Part shown: positions 44,904 to 61,209 of the stretch, piece after piece
How positions within the stretch are numbered: position 1 is the stretch's first letter
Layout: each line of letters starts with the position of its first letter
DNA from: Tetrahymena thermophila SB210
Taxonomy: Eukaryota > Ciliophora > Oligohymenophorea > Hymenostomatida > Tetrahymenidae
DNA length: 64,000 bases
Reading direction: 5' to 3'
Assembly (NCBI RefSeq): GCF_000189635.1
Contig: NW_002476434.1
Span: 806,001-870,000 of the forward strand
Program-made: the position numbers and the translations under genes
Notes under the pieces: generated by a model
Databases searched by the model: none
Told to the model about the DNA's origin: nothing
What the model saw: the letters and a program-made list of their open reading frames with translations, nothing else

Positions 44904-47900
44904 ATGAGTAGCCAAAAGGTATAAAAGACAAAAAATAGGTATTCTAAAAGTCAACAATTTGAGCCATTAGCGGGATTGAATAGAGAGCTCAGAACTGAAG
45001 ACTCTGATAGAAAAATTACTGATACAAATTTGTTATTGTAAATTTTTAACCTGGAAATTGCATAGTAATAAATATCAAACGTTAAATAATGTAGAAAGTA
45101 GAATATGACAACGCAGTCTGATTATGAAAACGCTATAAAAACATAAGAAGTGATAATTGACACAGAGGTATCATAGCACGCACTGATGCATTATCCTAAA
45201 AATGGTGTACGAAATTCAATCTCATATTTTCATATTTTACCTCTAAAAATTATGAACATAGAATAACAATAACAAAGTTGAAGATAATGTTGAGGATAAT
45301 GAAGAAGATAATGATGTTTTTGACATATTATATGGTCAAATATGTAAGTATTAATATTTTAGACATTCAATTCAAAATTAATAATAAATAAATAGAAAAT
45401 GATAAATCTAATCGTTAAATTCAAGAAGATAGCTCTAAAGTTAAATCAGATTAATAAAATACAAAGCCTTAACAGTATGAGACAAAAAAATCTGGTTCTT
45501 TCTTAAATTAGGACTACTATGAATTATAAAATATGAAGGAGTAGTAAGCGAGTGAACAAATTGAATAATATTCTAATGGTTAAAACAACCAGGATAATAT
45601 AATTAGAAATGCATAATCGATTAATATAAGAATACCTCTTTAAGAAACTTTAGACAAAGATTTAAAAATAGATTCTGAACAGTAAAAAAATATTTAGGAA
45701 TTAAATAATAAAAAGACTGATTCAATGAAAAATTCAAGATTCTAAAACCAATCTGTTTTCTAAGATAAACTTCGTTACATTTAAAATTTAAAGAACAGGT
45801 AAAACAAAGAAATCAATTAAAATAAAAGAGATAGTTTGGCCTTATTTAAAAATGCGACTCCGAGTAATTAGGAAGATAGCCAATAGGAAATTAACAAAAA
45901 ATTATTTGTGTAAAATAGAAAAACTTTATAAGGAACGGTAATTATAAATGAAGGAGATAATACTAACAATAAGTTAGTTACACAGAAAGCAAATTAGAAC
46001 TGGAATATGGTAAAGAAGTTAAGCATTATGATGAGGTTTAAGCAAAAACTCAACAAAATTATATAGCAAAGACTATAAAATATAAAAGATTTTCATCATC
46101 GTATGATAGGAGATTGCACAGATGCACCTATTTTGAAGATGGAAGAAAAAAAAGAAAATATTAAAAGCTTATACTATAAAATTTTCTTAGAAACTTACAA
46201 CCCAGAGTCATTACTGATCATTTATTATAAAATTTTCATTACATTATACACACTCTTTAATGTAATTTATTTACCTTTAATTTTTGGATTTGATCTTGAT
46301 TTAGGCACTGCTTTTATTGCTATCCACTCATGCACTATTATTATCTTTCTTTTTGAGATATATGCTAGCTTTAGAATTTAATACTATCACTTAGGAGAGC
46401 TTGTTACTGATAGGAATTAGATTTATTCTAAGTAAAACATATTTTTTATTACACAAAAAATAAATAATAAAACATTATCAAAAAATTTAATTCTAAAATT
46501 TTGTAAAATGTTTATTTATAGATAATTATTTTAAAATAAATTAGATATCTTAATAATAAGTTCATTACTGATTTGATCACTATTATAGCTCTGGTTATCG
46601 GTTATGATAAAAAACCTGCTCTCCTTTTTATTTTAGTTAAAATTAGGAATATTCTTTCTTATCTATGGGATATTGATAATCATTACTACTTGGCTGAGAG
46701 ATATAATGCTTTGTGGATATTAATCAAACTATTTGGGTTTATTGCGATACTTTGTCACTACTTTGCTTGTATATTTCATTATACTGGTATGGTTTAGGAA
46801 CATAAATACCCAGATGTTACCACCTGGACTAGAGAATTTAACTTAATAGGATAACCTTGGTCATTGAGATACAATTATTCAATATACTTTTCATTTATAA
46901 CATGCATCACTATTGGCTACGGAGATATAACCCCAAAAAATACTAACGAAAGAAATATTGTAATATTAATTAGTTTGATATCGACTGGTTGTTTTTCATA
47001 TTCAGTAAATACAATGGCTACTGTTTTTTAAGATTTTCTCAATAAATCTAAGAAATCAAAGTAAAATCATAATTTGTTGATTAAATAAACTCTCTTTAAT
47101 TTAACTTTTTGGTAATAGAGAGATGAGGTATGATGCAATCAATTACATGAGAGAAAGGAATATTCATAAGAATCTGCAATTAAGAGTTTTGAAGTATATT
47201 GAGTATATTTACCAAATGGAAGCTCAGTCGCCTGATAAAGGACTCTTTGCCATAAATTAAATATCTGGGCATTTAAAAGCCTAACTTTTTTAAGATTATT
47301 ATGGGAAAATTATCATACAAGATAAGCATTTCTCATTAAATTATAGTAAAGAAACAATAGACAAGCTTTCTTTAAAAATGAAAGAGAGGATCTACGGACC
47401 TGGAGAAATCATTTTTGATCAAGGAGAACAAGATACAAGAATTTTCTTTTTAATGAAAGGAGAAATAGAATATTATTATCCTAATAGAGGTAATAAGTAA
47501 TCTGAATACCTATCAATATTCTAAACGCAAGTAATATTTATATTTTAGATTTACAAAAAAATTTGGTTCATTTATTTAGATTAAATAGAATATATTTTTA
47601 TTTTTAAAAAAATTTTTTTGATTTAATAAAAATATTTATTCATTGCTTGCTTTAATTTAAAAAAAAAAATTATCTATAATAAATAATGAAATAGTTAACA
47701 ATTTCCCTAATAAATTGTTCTAATTTAAATAATTCAAAAAATGAATTTTTTTGGAAAAATCTATTTTTAAAATTATAAATTATTTATTTTTTAGAAATAA
47801 AAGTTTAAGTTTTTGTGTTTGGCCAAATTAACAAAAATAAAATTAATATTTAATTTTAAAGTAAAATTAGTTTTTTGGTTATAAGGGCTTTATTTCTGGA

Positions 47901-50056
47901 ATTCCTCGTGAAATGACTTGTAGGTCTATCAATATAACTTAAGTTTTCTACTGCACTCGTGAAGATTTAGTGTCAATTTTAAAGGAAAATCCACTTGAAT
48001 ATGTAAATTAATAAAAATGGAATTTTTTTACTTAATTTTTTATTACAAAAAGGAAAAATTTTGTAAGCTCAGAGATGAATATTTATTGCAATATTCAAGT
48101 TTAGGAGAGAAATGTTTTTCTTGCAACGAGTATGGGCATACTATTTCGGACTGTTATAAAATAAGGTATGTTAAAAATAAAGAGCTTCTCATTTTAAAGA
48201 AAAACTACTCAGCAAACTAAGTTAGACAATTTGTTTAAAGGAGTAATAAAAAATATGCGACATTCCTAAACATGTCAATAACTTCTTTCGAAGCTATTAA
48301 ATGCAAGTTAAAAAATGTAATGCAACTTCAAAGGTAGCATCTATCAGAAGAGGTTATAGATAAAATCATCATTTAAGAACAATCTAATCACAAAAGATTC
48401 TGTTTAAAATATCCTAGCGTAAACTAAATTTTAAATTATAAAAAAAAATAAAACTAAAAATTTTAATTTAAATGATAAAAGATTAAACTTACTGAAAATT
48501 GTAATGAGATTCTTTTAGGTAAAATGGATGAACCATTTGAATACAGCACCAGTGATTCAGATAGTAACTTATCACAAATATCTGAAGATGAGTCATTATC
48601 AGAATAATCTAGCTCAGGTCTATATGATTTAGATAGTACTTAGCGAGATCAAACTCTAAATAATATTTAAAAATCAGAAAATAAAAGAAGCTTTGCTAAA
48701 TCATTTAAATTGAATTAGGAGTAAAATCTAGAAGATATTTAATATGATGATAATGAAAACAAAGACGAGTTTTAAGAATAAACTAATAAGGTTTAGAAAA
48801 TAGAATTTACTTTAGAAAAATAAAATAGCAACTAAGGTCTCTTGAAAGACTCTTCTAATTATTAAATTACTGAAAATAATTAATCTGAATAAATTGCATA
48901 AAATTTGATTGGTAATGAATATTCGAAAAATACTAACATCTATGACTCAGGTGTTAAAAATAAGATTCTACTGAATACTCCTCAGAGTAATAACCCTTAA
49001 GATCGTGAATATGAAATAACTAAATAGTTAATTGGGTCACCATCACTTGGTAGTTAAGAAATGTTGAACAGATATGCAAACGAAAGCAAAGCAAAAAGTA
49101 TTTAATGGAATAAAAATGCCAATAAAAAATCAATATTAATAAAAAGCAATAGTCAAAACCAAGATTAAGATAAACCAACAAAAATGAATAGCTAATCTAA
49201 AATATAACTAAATAGAAAGAGTATCAACAATTTTTAAAAAGCTAACAAATATATATAGAAATTAAGAGAAAAATTTGATATAGCTCCAAGCTAAACTGAT
49301 GAAAATAAATATTTATCAAGTACAGCATAGAGATTTGCTAATGTTGCTTAAGAGTTAACAATGACCAATACGTATGAAGATAAAAATGTATCAATTCTAG
49401 CTAATAAAAAGAGTGCTTAATATCCACAATATGAACAATATAATTCAAAGGTAAAATTTATTATTTTAATTTAAGATTTAACTAATTTTATTTTTAAAAA
49501 GCAAATGAATAACTCAAATAAATATGAAACAAATGAAAATATAATTAATTTCTACTAAGGATAAATAAACAGGTTAGGTTAGTTTTTAAATTACTTCTAA
49601 AATTAACAAAAAAGCAGCAACAAAATCTAAGTTAACAGCACAAATAATCTAGCCAATGATTTTCAAAATTAGCTTCCACCACCTCCACCAAGATAGCACT
49701 CAATTAATAAAACAGAAAAATAAGAAAGTTCTCTGAGTTATCCATAAAAAAGAATGGCAGTATTAGATTTGAATGAGTTTTTGTTAAAAGCAAACAAGTA
49801 GGATATATTCAAAAATTTCTTACAAGACGAAGAAGTAGAAAATAATTAGGAACTTTTTTATTATGATTTCGATTTTCTTAAAGAATTCACATATTATTTC
49901 CCTCAAAATAATCACACAGCAGTCTGTTTAAATTACAAACGAATTATGAAAAAATTATAATAAAGTTAAAGGAAAAACATAAAACAAATAAATGTTAATC
50001 AACCAATTGCCTCATAAAGATAAAACTTTAGTAAATTCAAAAAAGATTCATATTGA
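44904..50056 (+). CDS. Six-TM potassium-type channel with CNBD-like domain and CCHC zinc knuckle (copy 1)
   Basis: Ten exons close to 1,437 residues: 44904-45037, 45095-45206 (donor could be 45168), 45262-45343, 45396-46431, 46545-47060, 47119-47530, 47871-48002, 48053-48418, 48482-49450, 49502-50056. The first ~330 residues are a disordered Q/N/K-rich N-terminus. S1-S2 lie at ~380-440. The S3/S4 region has very few basic residues (VKIRNIL). S5 follows, then the pore helix with filter TIGYGD (~577) and S6 (IVILISLISTGCFSYSVNT). Next come a C-linker (MRYDAINYMRERNIHKNLQL), a CNBD-like fold (YGPGEIIFDQGEQDTRIFFL, then FFGYKGFISGIPREMTCRS), and a zinc knuckle C829-x2-C832-x4-H837-x4-C842. A ~590-residue acidic/Q-rich tail ends with YDFDFLKEFTYYFPQNN. 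It probably conducts K+ in plasma or ciliary membrane. The CNBD lacks the canonical phosphate-cassette Glu, so cNMP gating is uncertain. Confidence 0.9.
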
Positions 50057-50863
50057 TTTTTAAACTTTATGTTTCTTTTCTAATTATATACTTGTCTAAA
50101 TATTATTAATTCAAATTAAATTCATTTTATATTTGTAACTTAATTAATCCTAAATTAAAACTCGAATGTTTTCACTTCATATCAATCAATCATTTATAAC
50201 ATCAACATAGAATCTTAGATGGCTCAGAAATATCATTTCTTTAGATCAAAGAGTTGATCGTATACCTCATCTTAAAATTCTATAAAATCTTCATTTAAAA
50301 TTGAATTAAAATAAATAAAATTGCATATGAATTAATCAATTAATATAAATAAATATTGATTGACGAATTAGTAAATAAATAAATTAATAACAAATATTTA
50401 TTTTTGCTGTAGCATAAATATAATTTGTATGTTAAAGTTTTATAATTAGAGTTTAATTTTTCTTTGTAAATTAAATAAACTGATTTCAGTCACTTTTTTT
50501 ATCAGTTAGAACATAAAAATTAAAAATAACATTTTTATTGAAATGATAAAAATAATGATTAAATTTGAAGACTCATTTAAATAAAATAGGTTAATACATT
50601 ATTTAATAAATTTTAGTATAGCAGTTTATCTCACTTAGGTTTATTATGTATAAATTTTAGAGTAATTTTTACAAAAGCAATTATTAATTTTAATTTATTT
50701 GGGTTATTTGATTAAAAAAATTTTTTTCTTCAAAAAATAATAATTTAATATATATTATAATTAATAAATAAATAAATAACTAAGCAAACTGATAAATAAA
50801 TAAATAAATAAATAATAATAATATTGACAAATAATTCTACTAGGGCTTCTGTTAATTATAAGA
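50057..50863. other. Spacer between channel copies 1 and 2, with AAAT microsatellite
   Basis: A/T-rich with an interrupted (AAAT)n/(AAT)n microsatellite at about 50761-50822. No coding frame was seen. It probably holds the 3' end of copy 1 and the promoter of copy 2. Confidence 0.6.
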
Positions 50864-53800
50864 ATGGATTAAATTAATAAGCAATAAAATTAAAATGAAT
50901 GTTGTGGTGAAATTTTTTAAAGGTATTTTTAATATCGCTTAATTTGAATGTAAGTCATTTTGTTTTATTTTATAATAAAAGCTAGTAGAATGACAATTAG
51001 TAGAATTTTTAAAATACTTAACTCACTGAATATGATAATGTGAGTTCTTAACAGACTCCAAATAGAATCTCATAGAAATCGCAATAGCTTCTTGTAAATT
51101 AGCTTCTTTAATTATTATTTAATTATTAAATTGTTATTAAAACAGATTGGCTTGAATAGTTTGTCAAATTCTGCTTACAAGAACATTGAACAAGGTATTT
51201 ATGATCTATCAAAATAAAATAATTAATTACTTTTGACTCATATTTATTATTTAAAAAAATCAAAATTAAAATATTTGTAATAGCTTTTAATAGAAAAAAC
51301 TCACCTAAATTTAGCTTGAAGATAAAACACTTAAGACGTGTATTAAGAGATGAAGATAATGTTAAAGATTCTGAGTAATCATTTTTAACTGAGCACTAAA
51401 GTTATTAGATCAACTAAATAGAATAAAAACAGAAAAATGATTAATAAAGTTCAGTGCAATAATAATTGAATCTATAAAATAATAGTGAAAAATATGAAAG
51501 TGTTACAAACACTCCTATGAGCATGTATTCTGGCTAAGTGGATTAAGTTTCTGATAAATTAACATTAAAAAAAATAGGTTTTAGTGATGAATTCAAAACT
51601 TATGAAGATTATTCAAAAATGAGAAATGCAAACTTAAGATAAAACAAGCAAAATAAACATCATACAGTTGAAATTCAAAGGATTCAGCAACTCAAATAGA
51701 ATTTAAAAAATAATAATGAAAATAAGAATTCTTTGTAAAATAAAAATAATGAATAATCTCCAAATTCTCTATTATCTGATAGGAATATTTTAGATTCAAA
51801 AAAAATAAATTATTTTAGAGATAGAATTATTAAATAATCAGGATAAACAATTAAAAAGTATCCTTAAGTGTAGCCTATAAATGAATAAAATAATGAAGAA
51901 GAAAAAAAAGTTTAAGTTTACCAAAATTGGAGAATGATAAGTCACTTAAATATAATTTTAAAAGTAAAATAGAAGCTCCTTTCAATGATAACTTAAAAGA
52001 TAGAATGTGTTACACCACAATAGCATTACTTAATAGGTGATCGTTCTGATATTTTTAATTAGAATGAGACCAAATAAAAAGATAATTTTTTAAACTAAAT
52101 AAATTCATTTATTTTAGATCCTGGTTCTAATTTTGTAATTGGCTCCAAGATATTAATTTCTGTCTTAATATTGTTCAATTTGATTTATTTTCCAATAGTA
52201 TTTGGGTTTGACTTAGATGTGTAACTTCAGATAACTTTGATCACAAGTTTGAGCGTACTATTTTGCATACTTGAAATTATTTTAGGTTTCAAAATAGCTT
52301 ATTATGAAATGGGAGAGCTTGTTACAGATCCTTCCCAAATAAGAAAAAAGTAAATAAATAAATATAATTAATTTATTATTATCAACTTAAATGCATTTAT
52401 AAACTAATAAAAATATTTTATTGTTAGATCAATACAATTTTATTTTTATAAAACAAATTTAAAATACTTTTAATAAAACAAGATACATGAGAGATTAGTT
52501 TTTACTAGATTTGTTGGCATGCTTATCTTTGCTAATAGGATTTTAGTATAAATATGTGATAATCCTTACATTTGTAAAAGTCAAAAATTTAACACAATAT
52601 TTGTGGGATATAGATAATCATTTCTTTTTGTATGAAAGATTCCACACTGCTTGGGTACTTATTAAGCTGTTTGGATTTATTACTATTATGGGGCATTATT
52701 TTGCTTGCATATTTCATTATGCAGCTATGATACAAAATGATGATCCTAATGTGGTGACATGGATATAAGGGCTGTAATTGCAGGATTCTCCTTGGAATTT
52801 AAGATACAATTATTCTGTTTACTTTTCATTTATTACCTGCATTACTATTGGATATGGAGATATTACTCCAAAAAATGTAATTGAAAGAAATGTTGTTATT
52901 ATTATTAGCTTAATCTCAACTGGGTTTTTTTCTTACTCAATAAACACTATAGGAACTATTTTCTAATAATAATTTCAAAATCTTCAAGCAAAAAAGTATA
53001 TAACTTTTTTTTCTTTTTGTTAAATAAATAATTATTTTTGAACAGGGAAATGAGATTCGATGCTATAATTTACATGAGAGAAAGGCATATTCATAAGCAC
53101 TTGTAGCTGAGAGTTTTGAAATATATCGACTATATTAATGATATGAAGTAGATTTCTCCAGATAGAGGGCTAGTTGTTATTAATTAAATATCGAAAGACT
53201 TGCAATCTCTACTATTTAAAGATTTCTATGGTAAAATCCTCAAATAAAATAAACATTTTAGTTTGAATTATAGCAGCTAAACTCTTGAAAAATTATCTCT
53301 GAAGATGAAAGAAAAAATATATGGACCTGGAGAAATTATTTTTGAATAAAAAGAATAAGATTACAAAATTTTTTACTTGATAAAAGGTGAAATTGAATAC
53401 TATATTCATAACAAATGTGGAAATAAACAGTCTGATTATATTTCAGTTACAAAAACTGATGTAAATATTCATTTTTTATTCATTCATTTATTGATTTACT
53501 CATGTTTTATTTACAAATTTAATATTACGATGTTTTTTTATTGATGAAATTTTTTTTTTAGAAAAGTATGTTTTTTGGATACAAGGGATTTATTTCTGGA
53601 ATACCTAGAGAAATGACATGTAGGTCTGTTAATGTTACACATGTTTTTTATTGCTCAAGAGATGATTTAATTAGTGTATTAAAAGAAGATCCTTAAGATT
53701 ATGTAAATTTTTATTGAAACAGAAAATATTTATATTTTAATTTAATTATATTTATAAAGGAATAATTTTGCAAGATTAGGGATTAGTATCTTCTTTATAC

Positions 53801-55244
53801 GAATTCTTTGGGTGAGTAATGCTTTACATGCAAGAAATATGGACACTCATTATCATGTTGCCATAAAACTCATTTAGTGAGAAATAAAGAGCTTTTAATA
53901 TAAAAGAGTAATTATTCATAAAATTAATGTAGAGCGAGCTTTGAAAGAAAGAAATAAAAGTATTAAACTTTCTTAAATTTATAATTGACAGTCTTTTAAG
54001 GAATAAAAATAAGACTAAAAACTATAATGAAACTAAGAAAACGGTATATTTCAGATTAAATTATTGAATAAATAATTATTTAAGATTTGTCAACTGGAAC
54101 AACATATAAAAATAAATATCCTTCCGTAACACATTCTTTATATTTTATTTATATAAATTATTCTTAATTAAAAAATATATTATTATAGATTTAATTCAGA
54201 GACAAAGAACTTATTCTTCTTGAATGTGATGAAATTAATGAAGAATGTAGCAGCTAATTCCTATCAGATGTTTCTGAAGATATTTCCATCAACACAAATA
54301 TAGCATATTAAGATACTAAAAAATATTAAGATAATTAGAAAAATACTTCATAAAGCAATTAATAATTACAAAGTAAAAAAAATAATTTGCTAGAAAGAAA
54401 AAAAAATAAACTAACAAAATAAAATAAGAATTAATAGTAATTTGAGAATTTTTCAAAGTCTTATCTTTCACCAATTTCAAATTCTTGTTCTAAATTTTCA
54501 TTTTAATCAATTCATAGCAACAACTCACTTAAAATGATAGATTAAAATCCTAAACCATAACTTTTAGAAATAGAAAATATTAAATCAAATTAGAAATTAT
54601 AATAAAAATCTCCTGTAATATTAAAATAATAAAAAAGTTAAGCAATTAATTTAAATAGTTGGCTTGATTTAGAGTAAAAATAATATGTTAAATTATAAAA
54701 AAAATAAACAAAAAAATTGAATAAGAGCATAGATTAATTGAATTAAATTCCTAATTAAAGTAATAAAGAAAAACAAGAGGAAGTTATTTCTGTAGCTAGT
54801 GAAAAAAACAAAGTTTATAATAATGAATTAAAATAAACATAATAAAAGGCAAAAAAAACTTCAGAAATAGAAAAGTATTAAAATGATAACAAAGATATGT
54901 TAAATGATATTCATAAAGACATATAAAACTCCTCCAACTAATAAGTGTTTAAATAGATTTTGCATTAATAAGTGGGAGCAAATAATAATGAATAAGAATT
55001 TGGAATTCATGATTTTGATTCTATAAAAGAATTTTCAAGATATTTCCCTCATAATAACATATCAGTAGTTTGTTTCAGATTTAAATAGAATTTAATTTAA
55101 AAAAATTTGCTTAAGAGGTATATTTAAAACCACTCTGAAGAAATCCTTTAAAAATTAAAATTCAAAAGTATAAGTGGGTTACACTCTTTATTGGTGAAAA
55201 ATAAAAAAACTAATTTTCTTAAGAATAAATTAAATGAGAATTGA
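50864..55244 (+). CDS. Six-TM potassium-type channel with CNBD-like domain and CCHC zinc knuckle (copy 2)
   Basis: Nine exons give 1,258 residues: 50864-50922, 50982-51093, 51146-51194, 51284-52349, 52483-52995, 53046-53460, 53562-53702, 53760-54125, 54189-55244. Layout matches copy 1: disordered N-terminus, S1-S2 (FVIGSKILISVLILFNLIYF), S3-S4 with only Lys residues (TFVKVKNL), filter TIGYGD, S6 (VVIIISLISTGFFSYSINT), C-linker (MRFDAIIYMRERHIHKHLQL), CNBD-like fold (IYGPGEIIFEQKEQDYKIFY, then FFGYKGFISGIPREMTCRS). The zinc knuckle is C806-x2-C809-x4-H814-x4-C819, and the terminal motif is HDFDSIKEFSRYFPHNN. The CNBD and knuckle exon pattern is shared with copy 1, including a 366-nt exon carrying the knuckle. 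The tail is much shorter and very rich in Lys/Gln/Asn. There are no breaks in the frame, so it is expected to be functional. Confidence 0.9.
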
Positions 55245-56125
55245 ATAAAACTGCAAAAAATTAAACTCATATAATTAAATAAAAATTTATGTGATTTTAT
55301 TTTTTAAAAATAAATAATTTTTTTACATTTTATTTCACCAAATATTAGAAAATTGCTATTAAGTTTATAATCAACTAAGAAAAAAATTTAACTTTATTTT
55401 TTAAATTTTTATTTTCTTAAATATAAATTTAATTGATCATTATTTTATTTCTAGAGAAAGATATGTTTCTTTCTTTCCTTACATAAATAAAGGTCATTTC
55501 AAATAACTATAAACCTAATTTTTTTGTGATTTACAAATACTTATAATAAAACTGTTGTAAGTAATATCTCTTTAATATAAACTTAATGAATATATTTAAG
55601 ATAGAACAATTTTAGTTAAAAATAATCTCCTTATAAATAATATAAAACTTCAGATTAATATTTGTTAATATCAAGCTCTAAATAAACTTTACTTCTCTCT
55701 ATTTTCTACTTAAAAAAATAAAATTCCACAAATAACAATAATAATTAATGAGGGTATATGGTATATCTAAAAATTTAATGAAGGCTTTTACCAAAAATAA
55801 ATTGATAAATATAAACATTTTTGTATGAATAAATATATCTCAATTTTATAAATATTATGCTATACATAAAATTAATTATATTAAAAATCGAAACGCTTAT
55901 AAATATAAATATTATCTAATTTTTTTAACTATTAATAGCTTCAAACAGCATTAGTTGTTTATTAAATATTTTAATAGAGATAATAGTAAATTATCTAAAT
56001 AATATTATGTGTTCATTCATTCATTTATAATTATTAAGTTGATTAAATATTTTTAGTTTAGAAGTAATTTAATGCTTATTCAAGTGTATTGAATGATCTA
56101 AGTTTAACTTGTAATTTTTTATTGA
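55245..56125. other. AT-rich spacer between channel copies 2 and 3
   Basis: No coding frame on either strand. Nothing beyond A/T-rich sequence was recognised. Confidence 0.6.
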
Positions 56126-59100
56126 ATGCAATTATTTAAAGATAGATTGTAAGATATGTAAAAAAACGAATAATCAGTTTATTAGAAAGAGAACTAAGAT
56201 TCCTAAATAAAATAGTAAGCGGAGTTATTTTAATCTAGCAAAATTGACTATAAAGAAGACTCTGTATTTTTATAATAAGCGGCCCGTGGAGTTCAAAACG
56301 ATAACTTTATGTTTTAACCTGGCCAGCTAGAAAGCAATAATGATTATAAAAGATAAGAAATATAATATAAATATAAAAAAAACATAGCGAAACATAACTA
56401 ATTAGAATAAATTTAAGATATTTATAATGAAGAATAGCACAGCTTCAATGGTCATGTTTAACTTCTTTCACCAACATCAAATGTAAGTTAGTTATTGTCC
56501 ATATTTTAAAATATAACTTGTTGTCATAAGATTTTTAAAAGCGATGAAGATTTATTTTCATAAAAGTCACAGCCATTGAGTATAAAAAAAAATACATAAA
56601 ATGGTAATTATTTAATCAAATTCAACTTACATATGTTAATCTATCATAATAGTCCTAAATCGTCAAAAAAAATCAATAGAGAGTGACCATTTTAATGAGA
56701 ATAATTAAAAAAAGTAAGACTTGATTGTTATTCCTACTAATAATAAAAATGGAAATTAGATTTAAGATTCATAGTAAATGTGTATTTCTTAAGAGGTACA
56801 GTATTTTAATGATAAAACAATTGAAGATGATTATAATCAATTAGGCACTCTTAACAACTAAGAACATTTCATTTAAACAGGATACAAAGAAACAAAAGAG
56901 TCGGAAGATTTATTATATACCAAAGAAGAAAACTAGAATGAAACTCCAACAAGAAAGCAGATGTTACAGAATTTAAGGCTATCACTTGATAAAATGATAC
57001 CTAAAAATTAGGTTTCAATCGATTCTAAAAAATCTGAAAGCCAAGAAGAGAAAATTACCCAAAGCAATCCAGTTTCGAAGTAAGAAAAGGAGCAAAATTC
57101 AAATAATAATAAGAGTAATTTCTCTAGAAAACTAACAAATGCTTAGTCAGTTAATTTAAGTTAAACCAAATCAAAGAAATTCTTTCCAAGAAAAAGCGAG
57201 TTTGGTTTAGTAAGATCGCAATTTAACAATGAAAATCCTCTAGAGGATTCTTTAAAAGTAGAATAAATAAAAAAAGAATCCAAAGAGAAGCAAGTTTAAA
57301 TGCAAATACTAGAAAGATTTCAATCGAAAAGCTGGAAGCTTGGTTTTAAAGCATAAAGATCTGAATCTATGATTAGTTGCACTTAACTAGATCAAAAATA
57401 AAACGAATAAAAAACATGGGATATAGTGAATAAGTTATGTATACTCCTAAAAGCAAAACATAAATTAAAAAATTTAATAAAGTAGAGATTCAGTTCTCTT
57501 TCTTTATACGAAAGAGGCTTGGTAGGTGATCTTTCTGATGGGAAATTGATTTCTTAAAAGACAATTACTGAAAAAAGCAAAATATATTAGAAAATAATCA
57601 AATTTTCCATTCACCCAGGATCATTTCCTATCATAATTTTTAAAATTTACCTTGTTCTAATAACTATGATAAATCTTGTTTATCTTCCTTTGATGTTAGG
57701 ATTTGATTTAGAAGTTTCTCACTTTTCTTATGCATTTTTTTTCCTAACTGGTATTTCCTATTCAGTAGAAGTTGCCATCAAATTTAAAACATCTCTCTCT
57801 GAAAAAGGAGAAATTATATCCAACCCAACTCTAATTGCAAAAAAGTAAACCTAAATTTCAATTTTTATTTTCTTTTATGCTTAGAAAATGTTATTTTTAC
57901 CATTATTAAATTTTAAATTAGAAAAATTTGTTAATAAAATTAAAAATAATTTTAAATTTCTTAAATTATAATGAAACAATTATACAACTTAATAACAAAT
58001 TAGATACATATAAAATGAATTAATCTATGATGTAATCACCTTGATAGGAGTGATATTAGGTTCAGCTTAACACTTCTTTTTCCTGTTGATGATTATTAGG
58101 ATAAAACATGTCTTAAAATATATGGATGATTTAAATAACCATTATTATTTAGCTGAAAAATATCATCAGCTGTGGGTTTTATCAGGACTTTTTTGCTTTA
58201 TTGTAATGATTGTTCATTATTTTGCATGTATATTCCATTATGTTGGATTATCTTAAATAAACGATAAATACGAAATATCCTGGTTAAATTATTACTAATT
58301 GGAAAATACTGCTTGGTAAATTAGGTACAATTATTCGCTTTATTTTTCCTTCATTACTACTGCTACTATTGGATTTGGCGATATCACTCCATAAAATACC
58401 CCTGAAAGATCAGTAGTAATCGTGTATAGTATAGTAGCTTCTATGTGTTTTTCATATACAGTAAATACAGTTGGTAATGTATTTTAAGATTACTTTAATA
58501 AATACCAGAAACAATTGTAATTCATCTTTATTTATCAATTTAATTTTATCACTATCAATATTTTGAATTAAAAAGTATTATGAGATATAACGCCATCAAT
58601 TTCATGAGTAACAGATCAATAGGAAAAGAATTGCAGCTAAGAGTTTTGAAGTATATAGAGTACATTCATGACCTAGAAAATGATTCACCTGATAAAGGCT
58701 TTGCTGTTATTAACTAAATATCTAAAAATCTAAAAAGCTAAATATATAATGAATACTATGGCAAGATATTAATGCAAGATAAATCATTCTCACTCAATTT
58801 TAGTAAGGAGAGCATATAAAAGTTGTCTTTGAGAATTTAAGAAAAACTCTATGGGCCTGGAGAGATCATTTTTGAATAGGAAGAATAAGATTATAGGCTT
58901 TACTATCTGATGAAAGGAGAATGTGAATTTTATTACTATAATAAAGGAGGAAGCAAATAATCAGAATATAAAACTGTTCAGTTTTCTACTGTATTCATTT
59001 TATATAATTTTATTTTTTTAAATTCTATTCATTTAAAAATTAGGATAAAAAGTTTTTTGGATACAAGGGGTTTTTTTCTGGAATTCCAAGAGAATTTAGC

Positions 59101-61209
59101 TGTAGATCTACAAATATAAGTCATGTATTTATTATAACAAGATAAGATTTAATTGAAGTGCTTAAGGAAGATCCTGAAGATTATGAGTAATTTTGTAAAT
59201 TAAGAGACTAGTTTTTACTATACAGAAATTCGCTTGGAGAAAAGTGCTTTGGATGCAAACATTTTGGACATACTTTAAGTGGATGCCCATAAATTCATTT
59301 AATAAGAAATAAGGAGCTGCTTTTATTGCGTCATAATTTCTCTGTAAATTAAAAAAGAATGAAGAGATTAAGAAAGCAGCACAAATATAAAACTCTTTCT
59401 TTAAAGTAGGAAGTGTCTTAGTAAGCTCAGTAATATAGATTAGACACTGTTAATGAAATAAAAAAATTAAATAAAGCAGATAATTAGTAGCTAAATTAAG
59501 ATTTTGTCATAACAGCAGAGCTAAGCGATAAAAGATTCTCTAAAATGTACCCATACGTAAAGTTTAATTTAATATAAATTATTTAGATTTTAATATATTT
59601 TTTTATAAATTAGATAAAATTTAAAAGTGATGAAATGATTTTGTTTGATAATTATGATGATGTTAGCGATTTTTCTGCCAGTTAAAGTGAAGACAGTTTA
59701 AGTAGCTCGGAATCTGAAAATGATTCGATTGAAGCTATTTCTGAGTAAATAGCAGAAGAAAATGAAGATTAAAGTGATTCAGAAGATTCAATTGAAGAAA
59801 AATTAAAAAATATAAGAAAAACCTCAACAAAAAAAGTAAATTCATTTGAATCAATTTCTTCAGATTCTTAAGATTCAGCAAAGAGAAAATCAAAACCATC
59901 TATATAATCCCTCTCTCAGCTCGGTAGTGAAAAGAAAATATCTACTGGATTAATCAAATCTAGTGCAATGATGTTGTAAGAAGATGCATTTTAAAATAAA
60001 TTTGACTAGTAAAATCAAGAAGAAACAGAAACAAATGATACAAAATAAGAATAAAAAATAACTGAAATTAATGATGAATCTATTTAAAAAAATATAGAAA
60101 ATAAACAAAGTATACGTAATAACACAGCAACCACATCAATTCTTCGAAATTCAGTTTTTTAAAAAAATAATTAAGAATCTAATTAGTCTAATGGTACATT
60201 TTAAAGATTGAGCAAAGTGAAAATAAGTTCAAAGACAATAGTAAATTTATTAAATTTATATTATTAAATCAATTAATTTAATTAATTAATTAATTAAAAA
60301 GGTTTAGCCTAGTTTCTCTAGATAAAATTCTCGGAAAGAATCCAAAGGTTATATAGAAAGCCCAAACATATCAAGACAAAGTAGCAAAAGAATGACGGAT
60401 TTTTAAAGGAAATCAACTAACCTAAAAAAGAAGTTTTCGAAAATAGAGAGTAACTTGCAATTATAGATAGAGGAGCCAGATTTTTTGATAAAAGATTTTG
60501 CATTCCATAATGATAGTCCTTCTTCTCTGCCAATTACTTACAATCCTAAAATTTTTAGGTCACATTCATTATCTGTAATATAATTTTTTTCTCTTTGTTT
60601 AGGAGTGAGTTTAAAAGTTAATTAATTTTTTTAATAATAAAGAAATAAAATACAGATGGAGTAAAATTTTCGAAGCAATTAATAGAAAATAACTAAAATA
60701 AAAAAGATTCAATATTGAGAGTGTATGAGAAATAATTGTAGTATCTATAAGGTTTAGTATAAAAGCTAGTTTAGAAGGAACATAATAAAGAAAAAACTGT
60801 TCATCAGCACATTAATACTTAAAATCAAGAAAATGAACCTTAATAAGAAAGTAACAAAGTTCACATGAAGATGAATTACAACAATATGAGTATGGAACTA
60901 CCACAAATCCTTTAGAAATCTTCAATGTATAATGCTTAGAATCTTAACATTTTACAATAAACTACTTTGGATGTTAATTATGAAATAAATAATTAAGTAA
61001 ATGAGCTCTTCAATTATGACTTTGATGATCTTAAAGAATTTACTAAATACTTTCCCCATAATAACGCTTCTCAAGTTTGTTTAGGATTTAAATAATTTTA
61101 AGATAGAAAGAAAAAATTAGAAAAGTTTTTCCTTTAAAAGCTAAGAGTAAATAAGCTAGAACATCTAAATAATATTAGCAAAATTTTAACACCAAATAAT
61201 AAGAGATGA
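56126..61209 (+). CDS. Six-TM potassium-type channel with CNBD-like domain and CCHC zinc knuckle (copy 3)
   Basis: Nine exons give 1,517 residues: 56126-56482, 56531-56603, 56653-57844, 58004-58516, 58576-58990, 59044-59556, 59614-60240, 60302-60558, 60603-61209. It shares the architecture of copies 1 and 2 but is the most diverged. The filter is TIGFGD instead of TIGYGD, the S4 region is IIRIKHVLKYM, and the C-linker starts MRYNAINFMSNRSIGKELQL. The CNBD-like fold has YGPGEIIFEQEEQDYRLYYL and FFGYKGFFSGIPREFSCRS. The knuckle is C918-x2-C921-x4-H926-x4-C931, and the terminal motif is YDFDDLKEFTKYFPHNN. The intron that separates CNBD end from knuckle in copies 1 and 2 is absent, so both lie in one 513-nt exon. 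Exon lengths 513 (pore) and 415 (CNBD) equal those of copy 2. The N-terminal cytosolic part is longer (~480 residues before S1). The 44-nt intron 60559-60602 keeps the frame. Confidence 0.9.

Follow-up and report, generated by a model that had tools for sequence, protein, structure and literature searches.

Structurally solved channels of the cyclic-nucleotide-binding domain (CNBD) superfamily, such as SthK, GORK/SKOR, CNGA1, HCN and KCNH, share a six-transmembrane (6TM) core, a GYG or GFG filter, a C-linker and a CNBD. The phosphate-binding cassette of this domain carries an FGE motif with its glutamate, and the last CNBD helix is a lid, which moves upon ligand binding in classical CNBDs. To our knowledge, none of these channels has a Cys-Cys-His-Cys (CCHC) zinc knuckle. 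Here we analyze a stretch of 64,000 nucleotides of the Tetrahymena thermophila SB210 genome (RefSeq assembly GCF_000189635.1, contig NW_002476434.1, positions 806,001 to 870,000 of the forward strand; hereafter the window, whose numbering is used throughout), in which three tandem genes, A, B and C, lie between positions 44904 and 61209. As judged from their predicted proteins, all three encode 6TM channels of the K+ type within the CNBD superfamily, in which the last CNBD helix is followed by a CCHC module some 80 residues long. The original prediction, made from the letters of the window, had pictured a local three-gene system; we find instead that the three belong to a family for which we count 269 candidate places, so that the unit of interest is the genome-wide family and not the local array.

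Three tandem channels with a CCHC knuckle

Searched as an exact DNA pattern, C-x2-C-x4-H-x4-C matches three times in the 64 kb (at 48113, 53820 and 59245) versus 0.03 matches expected, and none of 100 shuffles reaches three, which rules out a chance motif. The knuckle cores are CFSCNEYGHTISDC in gene A (48113-48154), CFTCKKYGHSLSCC in gene B (53820-53861) and CFGCKHFGHTLSGC in gene C (59245-59286), all on the + strand, and the perfect motif announced for all three paralogues is thus there in each. The flanking RNKELL, presented in the original prediction as common to all copies, stands in B and C, while A reads KNKELL. The proposed distance of about 20 residues from the CNBD was roughly right: the knuckle lies about two dozen residues past the Pfam CNBD, and approximately 23 past its end in gene A.

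Ion_trans, Ion_trans_2 and cNMP_binding all score above the Pfam cut-offs in the three copies, which therefore have a 6TM region, a pore and a CNBD, and alignment of the pore-to-CNBD part to SthK, GORK and CNGA1 places the C-linker and CNBD behind S6. The T-x-G-[YF]-G filter is present (TIGYGD in A and B, TIGFGD in C), from which K+ selectivity is predicted, and the S4 regions of the models, where voltage-gated channels have regularly spaced basic residues, contain only two to four such residues, counted by eye rather than with a profile. The fusion of channel and knuckle is borne out by these three in-frame 6TM channels with K+ filter, CNBD and perfect knuckle. Among the Pfam families named in the original prediction, Ion_trans and cNMP_binding were recovered in all copies; zf-CCHC (PF00098) was found only in A, and there below its cut-off (16.7 versus 20.8 bits), B and C being unlisted at E 1.

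Such a fusion could also be an artefact or a drifting relic, produced by mis-joined exons or by the capture of a functionless knuckle, for instance from a retroelement. An intron does split the CNBD end from the knuckle in A and B, with the exon boundaries (48002/48053 and 53702/53760) that had been predicted for them. In copy C, however, the CNBD end and the knuckle share a single exon (59044-59556) without any intron between them; the fusion in this copy is therefore independent of splicing, and we reject a splice artefact as its source. The family described below speaks against the artefact or relic as well, since 40 of 70 loci read carry the FGx stretch and the knuckle in a single frame without stop, the ligands are unchanged in 84 of 84 modules, and one protein record, chain C of Protein Data Bank (PDB) entry 7w5z, unites pore, CNBD and knuckle. 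We consider this explanation very improbable.

Selection on the metal ligands

The knuckle segment of copy C, compared with its own genome, gave 150 scored places out of 171 candidates. We read the sequences of 70 of these 150 first-round places, including the seven lowest-scoring, and of 14 places from a check for query bias (see below), i.e., 84 modules. All four ligands are kept in every one of them (70/70 and 14/14). When the 84 are aligned, their median pairwise identity is 28%, and no column other than the ligands reaches 100%. Further strong columns are a Glu in the helix preceding the knuckle (94%), an Arg behind the knuckle (94%) and the His and Pro of an added CPxxH motif (80% and 74%; 56/70 and 52/70 in the first-round copies). 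The region following the knuckle is rich in Arg and Lys, with Arg in 75% of modules at a second column. The codons of the ligands vary synonymously in the 70 copies, between TGC and TGT and between CAT and CAC. Residues that stay invariant at 28% identity while their codons change freely point to purifying selection on the ligands themselves, and we conclude from these alignments that the predicted metal ligands are under purifying selection, the original prediction having claimed selection on the motif from the three window copies.

A genome-wide family

Three further knuckle queries brought the union to 262 places, a fourth added six, and one locus read directly (L110) completed the set of 269 candidates, a knuckle place being a similarity match up to E 1 (E 1e-12 for the query made from the knuckle segment of 7w5z chain C). 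These places are spread over 96 contigs, 118 of them single and the remainder in groups of 2 to 11. A feature confined to the window is hence rejected, knuckle places having been found genome-wide by five knuckle queries. The three-member array itself holds, as the sole other knuckle place found on the contig is about 370 kb away. The biggest local group, by a 12-kb rule, comprises 11 knuckle places (C22:29519-86360). Prokaryote and viral collections, searched for relatives of copy C, gave 21 and 3 pattern matches, respectively, none of which is a relative.

We compared the knuckle places with matches to the CNBD (the best 150 of 540 candidates) and to the pore (the best 150 of 319 candidates). 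Among the matches listed, 173 of the 269 places have a CNBD match at most 500 bp or a pore match at most 2.5 kb upstream. PF00098 itself has 108 matches in the genome, 70 of them on family places; six of the other 38 lie behind a CNBD or pore match and 32 do not, which indicates, among the matches listed, that ordinary knuckle proteins are also present in the genome. One locus (C356:22272-22775) has seven zf-CCHC knuckles in a row and presumably encodes a CNBP/GIS2-like protein.

The association was also seen from the channel side. Pore matches, obtained with the S5-pore-S6 of copy C alone, are followed by a knuckle downstream on the same strand in 121 of 150 cases (120 without places known by PF00098 only), at a distance of 562-1553 bp (median 833); this number rises to 124 of the best 150 of 319 once the fourth further query and L110 are included. 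No knuckle was found within 2.5 kb upstream of the pore in any of these 150 matches. Thirty-nine of the best 150 of 540 CNBD matches have a pore upstream, and all 39 have a knuckle, 38 as a match and the last (C89) on reading. Conversely, 56 CNBD matches without a knuckle match are also without a pore match, among the matches listed. To the extent of the matches listed, the module would thus tend to accompany CNBDs that belong to channels. Several of the 56 knuckle-less matches sit in close pairs, which by analogy we read as resembling cyclic-nucleotide-dependent kinases.

Since knuckle queries favour matches that possess the ligands, we also read places selected solely on pore and CNBD. The first round left 81 CNBD matches without a knuckle match, 14 of them with a pore upstream; in the 226 bases read behind each of these 14, which are all such places, a perfect CCHC knuckle was present in 14/14, with a shift of frame at L110 such as an intron would cause.

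Cyclic-nucleotide cassette and zinc knuckle

All three window copies have another residue in place of the cassette Glu, the motif reading FGY (FGYKGF), while the Arg of PRE is kept, so that the pair expected of a cyclic-nucleotide-gated channel (FGE Glu and Arg) is incomplete by sequence. Because of this replacement, they probably lack a classical response to cyclic nucleotides. In the family, FGE is present in 22 of the 70 places read and the knuckle occurs both with and without it; the knuckle is therefore not tied to the classical nucleotide cassette. The missing Glu in the window copies makes another input plausible, for instance a zinc or redox sensor, in which the CCHC site would gain or lose zinc or be oxidized, and gating would follow the zinc or redox state of the cytosol. 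A metal site adjoining the gating ring, its ligands invariant in 84/84 modules, would suit such a sensor. CCHC knuckles, however, are usually tight, structural zinc sites, and we regard a sensor as unlikely.

Single family members are weakly recognized by Pfam, 13 of 30 matching zf-CCHC at E 0.5. A profile built from 30 modules matches solved knuckles, namely those of TUT4 (5.8e-7), the HIV nucleocapsid (2.5e-5), Lin28 (0.0036) and AIR2 (0.0051), and the knuckle can be expected to bind one zinc ion. This kinship would also agree with the suggestion in the original prediction that the channels bind RNA, for example for local translation or as a ribonucleoprotein anchor, and so would the basic tail behind the knuckle, with its frequent Arg and Lys. 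Nucleocapsid-type RNA-binding knuckles have a conserved aromatic or hydrophobic platform and Gly turns, and the aromatic and Gly positions of knuckles usually serve nucleic-acid contact or the turns of the knuckle. The three window copies all agree with this in having C-F and G-H, but the family as a whole does not, since its exposed positions vary: an aromatic residue stands at position 2 in 39 of 70 copies, Gly before the His in 26 and Gly after the second Cys in 9. Moreover, there is one knuckle only. RNA binding is thereby weakened as a shared function, since its contact and turn positions vary family-wide. A general role in RNA binding appears the less likely one on these grounds, and we hold the RNA-binding explanation to be quite improbable.

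That the ligands are conserved while exposed knuckle positions vary suggests a structural metal site. We give about an even chance to the view that the residues behind the CNBD lid helix form a structural or docking module, held by zinc through the knuckle. One zinc ion bound by the knuckle would make the stretch behind this helix rigid, and the rigid module might then hold the cytosolic gating ring together, or dock the ring to neighbouring subunits or to partner proteins; the variable surface residues could provide for different partners in different paralogues. The knuckle is probably a functional element of the channel and not a local oddity. More tentatively, and as a less probable reading, Tetrahymena may possess a family of over 200 K+ channels built on this zinc module, which would replace or add to cyclic-nucleotide control and would allow assembly or gating through zinc, redox or a docked partner; no such control is known from animal or plant CNBD channels.

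Several observations weigh against a zinc-holding module that is part of the channel. No CNBD or pore match lies upstream of 96 of the 269 knuckle places, among the matches listed, and no knuckle was found for 26 of the 150 pore matches, where it may be either absent or missed. Copies B and C singly fail to reach Pfam zf-CCHC, and AlphaFold2 models of the module, from three sequences, are too weak (mean predicted local distance difference test scores of 51.8 and 59.3).

Gene models and C-terminal parts

Gene models were built with genetic code 6 (TAA and TAG read as Gln) and GT-AG introns. Gene A is complete, with a single open frame from the ATG at 44904 to the TGA at 50056 and eight introns (45207-45261, 45344-45395, 46432-46544, 47061-47118, 47531-47870, 48003-48052, 48419-48481 and 49451-49501). 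Its S5-pore-S6 (46756-47046) was located with Ion_trans_2 and by genome search with the pore of copy C, and is followed by the C-linker and CNBD (47119-48002, with intron 47531-47870 inside; cNMP_binding E 4.7e-10) and, by alignment, by the portion of the post-CNBD module within the knuckle exon (48053-48268). The open cores of genes B and C start upstream of S1 and extend well beyond the knuckle. The core model of gene B, which excludes 5' exons, spans 51277-55244 (introns 52350-52482, 52996-53045, 53461-53561, 53703-53759 and 54126-54188) and includes S5-pore-S6 (52694-52975; Pfam and pore search), C-linker and CNBD (53046-53702, with intron 53461-53561 inside; cNMP_binding E 1.5e-7) and the aligned portion of the module in the knuckle exon (53760-53975). 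Gene C occupies 56700-61209, with an open core model at 56700-60240 (introns 57845-58003, 58517-58575, 58991-59043 and 59557-59613) that covers neither the first nor the last exons. Pfam and the pore search place its S5-pore-S6 at 58215-58502, and C-linker and CNBD lie at 58576-59190 (end approximate, intron 58991-59043 inside; cNMP_binding E 3.4e-10); family alignment puts the post-CNBD module at 59173-59397. All features are on the + strand.

Pfam at E 0.01 gave no match to a PAS domain of the KCNH/EAG type in the N-terminal 402 residues of A, and nothing in the N- or C-terminal parts of A or in two flanking open reading frames; a search of NCBIfam gave no match. The C-terminal tail of A is rich in Gln and Asn and contains a polyproline run (PPPPPPRQH, 49686-49710). 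Near the C-terminus, motif searches revealed a second stretch conserved in all three genes, DFDxLKEFxxYFPxNNxxxVC (DFDFLKEFTYYFPQNN in A, 49856-49951; 55008-55112 in B; 61009-61128 in C). It occurs at 34 places genome-wide, 22 of them at most 4 kb downstream of a knuckle, versus 6 of 34 in the control direction, and is perhaps a docking motif.

Relation to described systems

That CNBD and K+ channel genes have expanded in Tetrahymena is already known. T. thermophila has 396 predicted genes of the VIC superfamily versus 116 in Ichthyophthirius (PMC3341644, consulted in part), and the CNBD is one of the seven domains found most often in the species-specific genes of ten Tetrahymena species, according to the parts consulted of PMC6564038. 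The words knuckle, CCHC and channel are absent from the main text of the latter, whose supplementary domain network might show the link, and the portions consulted of PMC7935092 and PMC2636879 contain nothing on a channel-knuckle fusion. In the literature searched, mostly titles and the openings of abstracts, we found no description of a knuckle in Tetrahymena CNBD channels, in agreement with the original prediction, which saw here a candidate for an undescribed system; protein databases may well already show the domain order pore-CNBD-knuckle. If a zinc module at the CNBD is common to many of these channels, it offers a testable handle on the purpose of the excess channels, and a natural experiment, with hundreds of repeats, on a metal site coupled to a CNBD gate.

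The best solved relative of the core of copy C is the above-mentioned chain C of 7w5z (E 6.6e-52, aligned region 511-862), a "Cyclic nucleotide-binding domain protein" of 1471 residues that likewise has pore, CNBD and knuckle in one protein. Unlike the window copies, it has a canonical-looking FGE cassette and belongs to another subfamily. Its knuckle segment matches C422:131322-131534 at 94% identity over 71 residues; the matched stretch contains four TAA/TAG codons and would fit full identity when these are read as Gln. This member of the knuckle-channel family is registered as a chain of a T. thermophila respiratory complex IV entry, 7w5z being the complex IV dimer treated in PMC10227065, PMC10060162 and PMC10263302, in whose consulted parts no channel subunit was seen. 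Either the assignment of this chain calls for a check or the channel is an unexpected subunit of complex IV.

Alignments of copy C with SthK, GORK, SKOR and KAT/AKT extend no further than query residue 295 and do not reach the knuckle, which starts near residue 307; some CNG channel alignments reach residue 300-305, and one channel (6wej and relatives) reaches 351. With the CCHC zinc knuckles of TUT4/7, HIV nucleocapsid, Lin28 and AIR2, the module shares the ligands, their spacing and the profile match, but it has a single knuckle, variable Gly and aromatic positions and the added CPxxH, and it is fused to a channel. Kv2-4 K+ channels also have a zinc site on their cytosolic side, in the T1 domain, where it serves subunit assembly; that site is N-terminal, lies between subunits and has another ligand pattern in an unrelated domain, whereas the knuckle described here follows the CNBD.

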